A stretch of 5,452 bases of DNA, taken from NCBI GenBank assembly GCA_031275035.1, contig JAISPH010000124.1, positions 1-5,452 on the forward strand, given 5' to 3'. Below are positions 1 to 5,452 of this stretch, piece by piece. The first letter of the stretch is position 1, and every line of letters starts with the position of its first letter. The position numbers were made by a program, and so were the translations under genes. Under the pieces are notes generated by a model that did no database searches, was not told where the DNA came from, and saw nothing but the letters and a program-made list of their open reading frames with translations. The DNA comes from Treponema sp. (GTDB lineage: Bacteria; Spirochaetota; Spirochaetia; Treponematales; Breznakiellaceae).

Positions 1-564
1 GCCACCATGAACGATCCGAAATTGAGCGTCGAGGAAATAAAGTGGGGCATCAAGGAGGGCGGCTGGCTTCCGCAAAAGACCGCCCACACCGTCGTCCACG
101 CCGGGCGGAAGGAAGTGGATGATAATTATGCCGCGCTAAGTGGGGGTGCCGCTCCAGAGATTGCCAAATCCATAGGCCAAAAAATCGGCAGCATATATAC
201 AACCCTTACTAGCGAGACTCAAGCCCAAGGTGGAAATCCGAGCTCGGTTATTTTTTCGGGCATAATTCCTGAGAATCCTATAGATTCATACAATATCGGC
301 TACATCAATGGGAATGAGGGTATAAAAAGCGTGGTTCCGCATTATAACTCCACTAACGTATTTATCGCAGGAATTGATGATACTGATGAGTTCAAAGGAA
401 CTGTAGATGGCACATTCCAATATTCAGGAATTATCACAAATGTAGCAGCCATGCAGCCTGCCAGCAAGCAAGCCCTATACCTTGCAAACCTGACACAGCC
501 AAAATCCAACGGGACGGATTACGGGTATCCGGGAGCGCAGGGGCAGGCACGCACGCGTGCCTGA
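1..564 (+). CDS. Partial paralog of the downstream coiled-coil lipoprotein, C-terminal part only
   Basis: The frame is open to the left edge and 187 codons are visible. The ATG at position 7 is probably internal: the sequence before it (GCCACCATG) aligns with GCCGCCATG inside the next gene (1183-1191), so the real start lies outside the window. The visible part matches residues about 200-300 of that gene: VEEI.WGI, GGWLP.KTA, HAGR.EV, NYAALSGGAA, then a nearly identical block through IPENPI.SYNIGYINGN. After GIK the two proteins diverge and this one has its own tail of about 80 residues. I do not recognise the domain. By analogy with its neighbour it is probably the outer part of an exported lipoprotein, but the signal peptide is not visible. 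The last residues (QARTRA) are encoded by a GC-rich terminator hairpin overlapping the TGA stop, which suggests the original C-terminus was lost or replaced. It is a certain ORF of unknown function. Confidence 0.75.
   Translation, partial: ATMNDPKLSVEEIKWGIKEGGWLPQKTAHTVVHAGRKEVDDNYAALSGGAAPEIAKSIGQKIGSIYTTLTSETQAQGGNPSSVIFSGIIPENPIDSYNIGYINGNEGIKSVVPHYNSTNVFIAGIDDTDEFKGTVDGTFQYSGIITNVAAMQPASKQALYLANLTQPKSNGTDYGYPGAQGQARTRA
230..317 (+). repeat. 88-nt direct repeat, copy 1, inside the first lipoprotein-family gene
   Basis: This block matches 1406-1493 with a single mismatch (G at 283, A at 1459), which changes Asp to Asn in ENPI(D/N)SYN. The spacing between copies is 1176 nt. Sequence on both sides is much less alike, so the block stands out from ordinary paralog similarity. 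Confidence 0.9.
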
Positions 565-3534: not shown

Positions 3535-4521
3535 ATGAAAAAAATAATCAGGCTGATCATGCTTTTTTCTTGTATCTATTTTTTCCCGTTCCCCGGGTAT
3601 TTTCCCGGATTTATGGGAGAAGCTTTCTTCAAAAGATCGCAAAAGCCTGAGGTACTCGATGCTGAAAACGGTATGGGTATGCCCTATGTCGAAAATGTTG
3701 CCCTGGCTTTACCGGAATCTGCGGTTCTGTCCTCCACGTCCGGTACAGACGTCGCCATAGCCGGTATGCCGGAGCCGGAGGCCTATTCCAAACCCCGGAT
3801 GCTGCTCAGTTTTCCCTATAAGGTTCAGCAGGGCAATACCATTGGGGTCCTTGCGGAAACCTTCGGCCTTAATCAGGATACGCTCCTTTCCCTGAACGGT
3901 ATTAAAAATTCCCGGCTGCTTCAAATAGACCAAATACTAAGAATACCTAATCAGGATGGTATTCTCCATACGGTTAAGAAAGGGGATACCCTTGCTTCCA
4001 TCGCCGCAACATACGAGACCAGCCCCGAAACAATCCTGACGGCAAATGAGCTTTTCTCGGAAACAGTTAACCCTAATACCACCCTGTTTATTCCCGGCGC
4101 CAGGCTTTCCCGGACAGATCTTCAGGAAATAAACGGCGATCTTTTTCAGTGGCCTGTTCGAGGGTATATTACCTCGGCCTACGGCTACCGGCCGAGCCCC
4201 TTTACCCGGGAACGTCAGTTCCATACCGGTATTGATATAGGTTCGCCCACAGGGACCCCCATACGAGCGGCTATGGCGGGCAGGGTTTCCTCGGTCGGTT
4301 ATGACGGCGTTTCCGGCAATTATGTGGTACTTTCCCATCATTCCGGATATCGGACCCTATACGCCCACATGAGCGTTGTCAGGACAAAGACTGGCGCCTA
4401 TGTCCGTACCGGGGATATTATCGGAGACGTTGGCAGTACCGGTTTAAGCACGGGCCCCCATCTGCACTTTACGGTTTATAAAAACGGCGTTACGGTTAAC
4501 CCACGGACATTGATAAAGTAG
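3535..4521 (+). CDS. Secreted LysM-LysM-M23 metallopeptidase (peptidoglycan hydrolase or its activator)
   Basis: The product has 328 residues. Residues 1-30 are a signal peptide or membrane anchor (MKKIIR, then a long hydrophobic run). LFSC at 10-13 resembles a loose spirochaetal lipobox, but the hydrophobic region continues beyond it, so lipidation is doubtful. Two LysM peptidoglycan-binding domains follow: about 94-138 (YKVQQGNTIGVLAETFGLN, ending ILRIP) and about 144-188 (HTVKKGDTLASIAATY, ending LFIPG). The M23 domain covers about 206-325. Zinc ligands H230 and D234 (HTGID) and H311 (HLH, 309-311), plus H278 (YAHM) and H309, are all present, so it should be an active endopeptidase cutting peptide cross-links, not a degenerate EnvC/NlpD-like activator. 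The first ATG is chosen because it supplies the basic n-region; the ATG at 3559 would lose it. It lies 57 nt after the nuclease-family gene, with its own likely promoter. Confidence 0.92.
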   Translation: MKKIIRLIMLFSCIYFFPFPGYFPGFMGEAFFKRSQKPEVLDAENGMGMPYVENVALALPESAVLSSTSGTDVAIAGMPEPEAYSKPRMLLSFPYKVQQGNTIGVLAETFGLNQDTLLSLNGIKNSRLLQIDQILRIPNQDGILHTVKKGDTLASIAATYETSPETILTANELFSETVNPNTTLFIPGARLSRTDLQEINGDLFQWPVRGYITSAYGYRPSPFTRERQFHTGIDIGSPTGTPIRAAMAGRVSSVGYDGVSGNYVVLSHHSGYRTLYAHMSVVRTKTGAYVRTGDIIGDVGSTGLSTGPHLHFTVYKNGVTVNPRTLIK

Positions 4522-4523
4522 CA

Positions 4524-4689
4524 GGCTAGTCGTTTACGACGTTTGGGCGGCACCATAAAGAAACCCGTAGGGTTTCGTGCCGCCCAAATGTGCCGGAGTG
4601 AGCCGTGGGAAGGAGCGGAGCGACTGACCTAGGCGAACGGAGATCGAGGGGCCTTCAGGCCCCGATGCGTAAAACTGGCCTGTTATACG
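4524..4689. repeat. attC-like structured element 1 (integron recombination site), outer left box missing
   Basis: The outer arms GGCTAGT (4524-4530) and TTTACG (4533-4538) pair with ACTGGCC (4674-4680) and CGTAAA (4668-4673), leaving CG (4531-4532) unpaired on one side. This resembles the extrahelical bases of attC L boxes. Inside is a 12-bp stem (4542-4553 with 4577-4588), a six-base bulge (4554-4559) and an inner 7-bp hairpin with loop GTA. A second hairpin pairs GGGGCCT (4648-4654) with AGGCCCC (4657-4663). The right end is the core-like box GTTATACG (4682-4689). The partner box CGTATAAC expected left of 4524 is absent. The element begins 2 nt after the M23 stop codon and has no T-run that would make it a classical terminator. 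The call rests on comparison with element 2 and known attC architecture; at about 166 nt it is long for attC. Confidence 0.6.
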
Positions 4690-4722
4690 ACGTTTTGCCC
4701 GTACTTTATTTATTACAATTTT

Positions 4723-5241
4723 TTATCTTTGTATCCATCCTAATAATTCAAATGTTTCTACCACATATACGGCTATATATTCCGCTACCCATATTTCATT
4801 CTCATTATCATATCTATAATCAGATATAAATGGATTCGGTCTATTTGTAGTATAGGATTTCATATCAACGTTAATGCAATTATTGCCTCCCTGTCCATCT
4901 TCACCAATAAAAATACTTGTAATAGAAATTCCACCAGATCCCAAGTCATTCTTTATTTTGTTATAATATCTTGGATCATTTTTTAAATTGTTTATAAATT
5001 TTTCCAGCAATAATTTTTGTCCGTTTGTTAGAGATGACTTTTCTCCTACCAGGAAATTTCCTTCTTTTTCCCGATAGTTTTTTATTGACCATTCTCTATA
5101 ATACCAACAATCTTCAATGGATATATCACAATCAAAAGGATAATTCAATCCATATTTTTCCATATAATTCGTTATTTTATCGTCAGAATAACAGAACATA
5201 CCGATTATTAGGAAAATAAAACAGAAAACCCCTTTATTCAT
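4723..5241 (-). CDS. Exported protein of unknown function encoded by the cassette
   Basis: The product has 172 residues. The start is supported by AAGGGAGG (complement of 5247-5254), 5 nt before the ATG. Residues 1-19 are a signal peptide (MNK, a hydrophobic core, then CYS before DD). Cys17 follows GMF, a poor lipobox, so signal peptidase I cleavage is likelier than lipidation. The mature part is polar and rich in Asn, Tyr, Lys and aromatic residues, with Cys38, Cys45 and Cys122 that could form disulfides outside the cytoplasm. Notable stretches are the basic SLTNGQKLLLEKFINNLKN (70-88), GEDGQGGNNC (113-122) and a hydrophobic EIWVAEYIAVYVVETFELL segment (149-167) with a strand-like pattern. 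I recognise no family. Base and codon use is strongly AT-biased compared with all other genes here, pointing to transfer. Such cassette genes are often unique; toxin, immunity or adaptive surface functions cannot be distinguished. Confidence 0.8.
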   Translation of the reverse strand: MNKGVFCFIFLIIGMFCYSDDKITNYMEKYGLNYPFDCDISIEDCWYYREWSIKNYREKEGNFLVGEKSSLTNGQKLLLEKFINNLKNDPRYYNKIKNDLGSGGISITSIFIGEDGQGGNNCINVDMKSYTTNRPNPFISDYRYDNENEIWVAEYIAVYVVETFELLGWIQR

Positions 5242-5263
5242 TAGAACCTCCCTTTTATTGACT

Positions 5264-5292
5264 ATTCTATACGATATATTCTATTTTGTCGA
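5264..5292 (-). promoter_or_regulatory. Candidate sigma-70-type promoter for the cassette gene
   Basis: On the minus strand TCGACA (complement of 5287-5292) and TAGAAT (complement of 5264-5269) are 17 nt apart, each one base from consensus. The start would be near 5257, giving a leader of about 16 nt that holds the Shine-Dalgarno. The region is AT-rich, so chance matches are a concern. Confidence 0.5.
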
Positions 5293-5330
5293 TATTTTAT
5301 ATTGGTTTCAACAAAATTTAGGGCAAATGG

Positions 5331-5452
5331 CGTATAACGTTCCGGCTGTTTACGACGTTTTGCCAGCCCGAATAAGGGCTTTGCGAAGCAAAGACCAGGG
5401 CTGGCAAAATGTGCCGGAGCAATGGCGTGGGAATGGAGCGTAGCGGAATGAC
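5331..5452. repeat. attC-like structured element 2, cut by the right edge
   Basis: It starts with CGTATAAC (5331-5338) and the L-like arm GGCTGTTTACG (5344-5354). A 12-bp stem follows (TTTTGCCAGCCC, 5358-5369, with 5398-5409), then an inner CTTTGC/GCAAAG hairpin with loop GAA (5385-5387). GTTTACGACGTTT (5348-5360) and AAATGTGCCGGAG (5407-5419) are identical to 4532-4544 and 4586-4598 of element 1. The downstream tail (GTGGGAA, GGAGCG, AGCG, TGAC) also follows element 1. The distal arm and core box lie beyond the window. Confidence 0.6.

Follow-up and report, generated by a model that had tools for sequence, protein, structure and literature searches.

Two hairpin-forming elements near the end of a Treponema contig raise the question of whether they are recombination sites of an integron and, if so, which enzyme acts on the genes between them. 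According to our analysis of the window (the whole stretch of DNA under study, 5,452 nt) and of its relatives in a genome collection, the elements probably serve as attC sites in a cassette system of the integron type that belongs to relatives of Treponema in termite guts. Judged from the sequences, this system is a new integron variant, the recombination itself being what we infer.

Folded Sites in the Window

Element A (4542..4588, plus strand) has a 12-bp stem, TTTGGGCGGCAC/GTGCCGCCCAAA, in which 4542-4553 pair with 4577-4588 around a 6-nt one-sided bulge and a 7-bp inner hairpin with a 3-nt loop. Element B (5358..5409, plus strand) has another 12-bp stem, TTTTGCCAGCCC/GGGCTGGCAAAA (5358-5369 with 5398-5409), enclosing a one-sided bulge and a 6-bp inner hairpin, again with a 3-nt loop, and the flanks GTTTACGACGTTT and AAATGTGCCGGAG are the same in both elements. 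These stems, bulges and inner hairpins all lie where a preliminary description had placed them; its observation that the stem letters are swapped while the flanks stay fixed was confirmed in the sequence, and the covariation persists across 49 aligned relatives. When folded as single-stranded DNA, the elements gave z values of -6.1 (A) and -5.6 (B) on the plus strand and of -5.2 (A) and -4.2 (B) on the minus strand, and none of 200 shuffles folded as well in any of the four element/strand cases.

A covariance model built from the 49 relatives placed attC site A at 4511..4692 (plus strand; cmsearch 118.6 bits, E 6e-30) and attC site B at 5328..5452 (plus strand; 105.7 bits), the latter covering model positions 1-120 of 182, as its 3' part is cut by the window end. 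The described element is thus a real hairpin, but it is only hairpin 1 of a longer site, the other hairpins of which had been missed. In site A, the plus strand is the better-folding (bottom) strand, and the standard attC orientation is the minus strand; the outer R box (near 4520-4531) is degenerate.

On the window plus strand, the layout begins with an R box whose last letters are AAC, a few unpaired nucleotides, an L stem and hairpin 1, and continues with further hairpins, the L stem, fewer unpaired nucleotides and an R box starting with GTT. The conserved attC fold and the R''/R' boxes with AAC and GTT, by which integron sites are recognized, are therefore both present. In known attC sites, the L box of the bottom strand includes an extrahelical base; the L stem of the 49-row alignment showed none that was conserved, column 186 being filled in the window row only (1/49).

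Relatives and Conservation of the Fold

An exact pattern for the two flanks matched at least 119 stretches in the genome collection. Among the matches listed, 107 of 119 were spirochaetes by their record titles, and we read the record names as placing most of these relatives in termite guts. On many contigs the copies occur in succession, e.g., ten in 8 kb of L030, and one relative (L119) shares an identical core of 61 nt with site A. The further copies, expected in the preliminary description at intervals of 0.5-1.5 kb, were found approximately 0.3-2 kb apart with a single gene between them.

Changes on both sides were seen in 25 of the 36 consensus pairs of the 49 aligned relatives; 96.3% of the cells were paired, and double-change cells numbered 300 compared to 95 in shuffles (0/500 shuffles as high). 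Sliding the partners by 1-3 columns lowered pairing to 31-45%, a control biased toward the structure, which itself comes from this alignment. The window plus strand was the more stable one in 150 of 154 elements (mean -48.2 vs -43.7 kcal/mol), taken from first-scan loci and many of them out of few genomes. According to passages of PMC11023631, integron recombination proceeds through the folded bottom strand. Taken together, the covariation and the R/L box layout support the earlier proposal of attC-like sites in which the fold is under conservation.

The Window Cassette and Its Neighbors

The window holds one gene cassette (4531..5338, minus strand), flanked by two attCs of about 150-190 nt. 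As defined by the GTTATAC/GTATAAC R boxes, the matching ends and the cassette model from the arrays, it extends along the minus strand from position 5338, the crossover G of GTT, to where site A ends; site B is part of the preceding cassette of the array. The sequence of the cassette end (4684..4702, plus strand; R box GTTATACG and extended arm ACGTTTTGCCC) is complementary to the cassette start arm GGGCAAATGGCGTATAAC (5321..5338, plus strand; GTTATACGCCATTTGCCC on the minus strand), with one extra mismatch and a one-base shift relative to array cassettes, as read by eye. The cassette ORF of 172 aa (4723..5241, minus strand), taken from the ORF list, matched no Pfam family at E 0.01. Upstream of it, a promoter-like site, TCGACA-17-TAGAAT, with 10/12 letters was found by eye (5264..5292, minus strand).

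A chromosomal neighbor gene, in which the Pfam search found LysM and M23 peptidase domains (3535..4521, plus strand), ends at 4521. With site B assigned to the cassette before, the window represents either the far end of an array or a small cluster next to ordinary chromosomal genes. On a Prevotellaceae contig (L111:2400-5131), a cassette likewise adjoins an apparent M23 peptidase gene. Elsewhere in the window (28-327 and 1204-1503), two adjacent ORFs have long direct repeats in common (79% and 93% identical), which represent a partial gene duplication.

Cassette Arrays and Cassette Ends

The array organization is clearest in the single-contig genome G045, in which 42 attCs within 38.5 kb all have the same orientation; the array begins 1.9 kb after the recombinase gene, and the next 69 kb beyond it contain no attC. 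Passages of PMC9668308 ask for at least two attCs less than 4 kb apart in an integron, and two or more within 4 kb are indeed found here. Whole-genome searches gave 48 attC matches in G045, 34 in G421, 15 in G155, 6 in G153 and none in G047, the last of which has a canonical IntI.

Both ends were found for 55 cassettes (38 in G045 and 17 in G421). The longest ORF points along the array direction in all 52 cassettes having one, the other three containing no ORF of 50 aa. Three short ORF-less cassettes with similar starts were noted in a joined stretch of G045 (38015-38180, 38316-38480, and 42641-42805).

The two ends of a cassette are complementary over 16-18 nt. When each start was compared with the reverse-complemented end of the same cassette, 17.2 (G045) and 17.35 (G421) of 20 positions agreed on average, compared to 10.7 and 10.8 for the ends of other cassettes, and in neither genome did any of 5000 permutations match the own-end value. 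In 54/55 cassettes, the start has A at position 11 where the reverse-complemented end has G, which gives a G.T wobble on the folding strand and an A.C mismatch on the other strand. For the folding strand, the calculated energy was -41.0 kcal/mol in the array form and -52.9 kcal/mol once a cassette's own ends were joined as in an excised circle, the joined form being lower in 24/24 G045 cassettes tested. The ends of two control cassettes next to the canonical Gracilinema caldarium IntI were complementary over 8 nt only.

These data bear on the idea that the elements are MITE, REP or similar hairpin repeats multiplying singly. Such repeats would also be multicopy hairpins, and solitary copies do occur in Helicobacteraceae; however, the uniform orientation (42/42), the one gene between copies and the cassette-specific complementary ends speak against this reading, which we regard as extremely improbable and which the spirochaete arrays contradict. 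The preliminary description had named lone, scattered, MITE-like copies as the finding that would count against attC sites; they are not the pattern in spirochaetes, although lone copies are present in other phyla.

Cassette Contents and Promoters

Pfam searches of 52 cassette proteins revealed acetyltransferases in three and Fic, HicB, PIN, TIR, and AbiC-like domains in one each, and PADLOC models of defense candidates matched some of the cassette proteins. Promoter-like sites with at least 10/12 letters were found in 173 of 260 cassette starts of first-scan loci, compared to 9% in shuffles, and sites with at least 11/12 in 100 of 260, compared to 0.8%; these starts (loci L001-L119) come from few genomes. 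Two thirds of the starts thus carry a sigma-70-like site, unlike the usual promoterless cassette. In G045 (2/23) and G421 (2/17), sites with at least 10/12 letters are at the shuffle level, but the two in G421 reach 11.

The Recombinase Beside the Arrays

The gene adjoining the arrays encodes a tyrosine recombinase of approximately 390 aa with an N-terminal domain of about 100 aa. Between the two catalytic patches, 58-62 residues were counted in 103 of 120 relatives (17 were not parsed), compared to 98-101 in 115 of 120 IntI (5 not parsed) and 101 in IntI4. The enzyme is thus without an insert of approximately 40 residues, and positions 178-234 of the IntI profile are unmatched. Parts of PMC9668308 and PMC9024848 name the IntI-specific additional domain around patch III as defining, and the array-adjacent recombinase does not have it. 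Residues R240, K265, H329, R332, and Y364 are invariant in 49 sequences, and these recombinases form a clade apart from IntI. The preliminary description had suggested looking for an integron-type recombinase; judged by the insert, the enzyme that adjoins the arrays falls outside the IntI type.

A recombinase match skipping the insert was obtained in 7 of 41 carrier genomes, near attCs in three of them (G028, G005, and G025), and the insert-less recombinase also lies near attCs in G045, G155, and G421. We collected 54 recombinase loci (three duplicate stretches left out), 39 of them with at least 900 bp of downstream sequence. An attC follows within 3.9 kb downstream in 21/39, in the same orientation in 20 of the 21, while none was found downstream in the other 18, and six loci (L150, L199, L202, L204, L205, and L206) show no attC in about 9-10 kb downstream of the recombinase. 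None of the 15 loci with less than 900 bp downstream shows an attC. In L199 (9010-11247), an attC lies on the other side of the recombinase in a divergent layout, so that a single family may contain both integron layouts. A GTTANRYG-like first-cassette junction, an attI candidate read by eye, was noted in 9 of 20 downstream stretches. Outside the family, the divergent recombinases of G226, G227, G239, and G209 adjoin divergent attCs; in the stretches examined for G207, G218, G244, G256, and G263, none was found.

An ordinary integron, with a canonical IntI mobilizing the cassettes next to an uninvolved insert-less recombinase, would equally account for attCs, cassettes and array layout as in integrons, and for the attCs in 106 of the 122 genomes in which no recombinase was detected (counted by eye). 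This explanation appears unlikely to us, since no IntI above the curated cut-off was found in any of the first 41 carrier genomes searched, nor in the single-contig genomes G045, G155, and G153, which carry arrays or copies, and since five genomes with canonical IntI are without these attCs.

We lean slightly toward a second integron type, driven by a sister of IntI that never had the insert or has lost it, that reads the folded sites otherwise, perhaps by the N-terminal domain, and that drives cassette exchange in termite guts across several phyla. In our main reading, the insert-less recombinase would bind the folded bottom strand (the plus strand of the window) and cut at G^TT in the R box; cassettes would be excised as circles and inserted at attI next to the recombinase gene. 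An extended stem would be closed in the circle by the start of the same cassette; by calculation this form is more stable than the array form by some 12 kcal/mol, a difference expected to favor capture rather than loss. The role of the IntI insert may fall to the N-terminal domain, and cassettes might occasionally insert outside arrays, in other phyla as well.

It could also be supposed that the recombinase became inactive with loss of the insert and that the arrays are relics copied by other processes. The activity is indeed deduced from sequence, in G153 the recombinase gene is broken and copies are few, and copies are scattered in other phyla. Against this stand the invariant catalytic residues in 49 sequences and the ends complementary over 16-18 nt with the odd position matched in 54/55 cassettes, because complementarity decays without selection; relic arrays are therefore, in our view, very unlikely. 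The G153 recombinase (L217) was matched in two separate pieces, and this genome has six attC matches.

Distribution Within and Beyond the Spirochaetes

The attC model matched 167 of 195 genomes of the window's family, and canonical IntI was found in 5 of 195, none of which has these attCs. Matches occurred in 61 of 68 genomes with an insert-less recombinase hit and in 106 of 122 with neither recombinase (counted by eye; many are fragmented MAGs); the argument is therefore one of linkage, because co-occurrence alone proves little. In the order, the attC model matched 149 of 390 genomes and the recombinase, at E 1e-60, 74 of 390.

Among the non-spirochaete genomes tested (all MAGs), 8 of 11 matched the attC model at E 0.01: the Helicobacteraceae genome G013 has 29 sites (25 at E 1e-4), and the other matching genomes have 1-4. 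Some of these sites may be assembly errors, since most lie near contig ends. Low-GC cassette ORFs adjoin higher-GC genes, on both sides in G029 (L246) and G023 (L248), and we read these neighbors, without a formal score, as host core genes. Of 23 non-spirochaete cassette genes compared with the spirochaete loci examined, three had a relative by DNA and five by protein, the best DNA identities being 84% (G013 with L089) and 74% (Planctomycetales G008 with L048). A canonical IntI fragment (251 bits, profile 158-315) is also present in G023. Single or few cassettes were seen in Helicobacteraceae (L230-L244 in G013), Accumulibacter and Planctomycetales MAGs (L246 in G029, L248 in G023, and L249 in G008). 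The distal junctions in these loci read G followed by TTATAATT, AAATAGC, TCTTAAT, and TTTGTG.

Implications and Comparison With Known Systems

Passages of PMC9024848 and PMC8138268 state that the IntI insert goes with single-strand recombination and distinguishes IntI from other recombinases. Clear attC arrays in a lineage without the insert open the origin of integrons to testing, i.e., whether the insert was gained after a simpler ancestor or was replaced. Searches that require the insert profile, as described in part of PMC9668308, would miss these integrase genes, even though the attC type is present in 167/195 genomes of the family. The relatives of cassette genes found in other phyla suggest exchange among members of the gut community.

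Our literature search found no paper on this insert-less integron system. The sedentary chromosomal integrons of Treponema denticola, T. succinifaciens, and T. brennaborense, as described in PMC3607928, resemble it in their one-gene cassettes, GTT/AAC attC cores and array-facing integrase. They differ in attC length (63-132 bp, compared to about 150-190 nt here), whereas the integrase here is insert-less and the cassettes of some hosts have promoter-like sites. The preliminary comparison with T. denticola therefore fits in layout but not in lineage: the carriers are of the termite-gut lineage, the isolates of which were reported as being without integrons in that 2013 survey (PMC3607928).

The IntI cassettes of G. 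caldarium have ends complementary over 8 nt (n = 2) compared to 16-18 nt here. With respect to IntI itself (TIGR02249; IntI4 structure 2a3v), the insert is missing, and four proteins scored 186-208 bits, below the cut-off of 265. Against XerA (NF040815; 5hxy), four proteins scored 210.2-217.2 bits, below the curated cut-off of 220; the recombinase differs from XerA in its N-terminal domain and array neighborhood, and it stands apart from the XerA-like proteins sampled. Finally, Loot et al. in 2024 reportedly described attG insertion of integron cassettes outside integrons. The solitary cassettes among chromosomal genes, with junctions read as G and then mostly T, resemble such insertion, but here they extend across phyla and involve another attC type.
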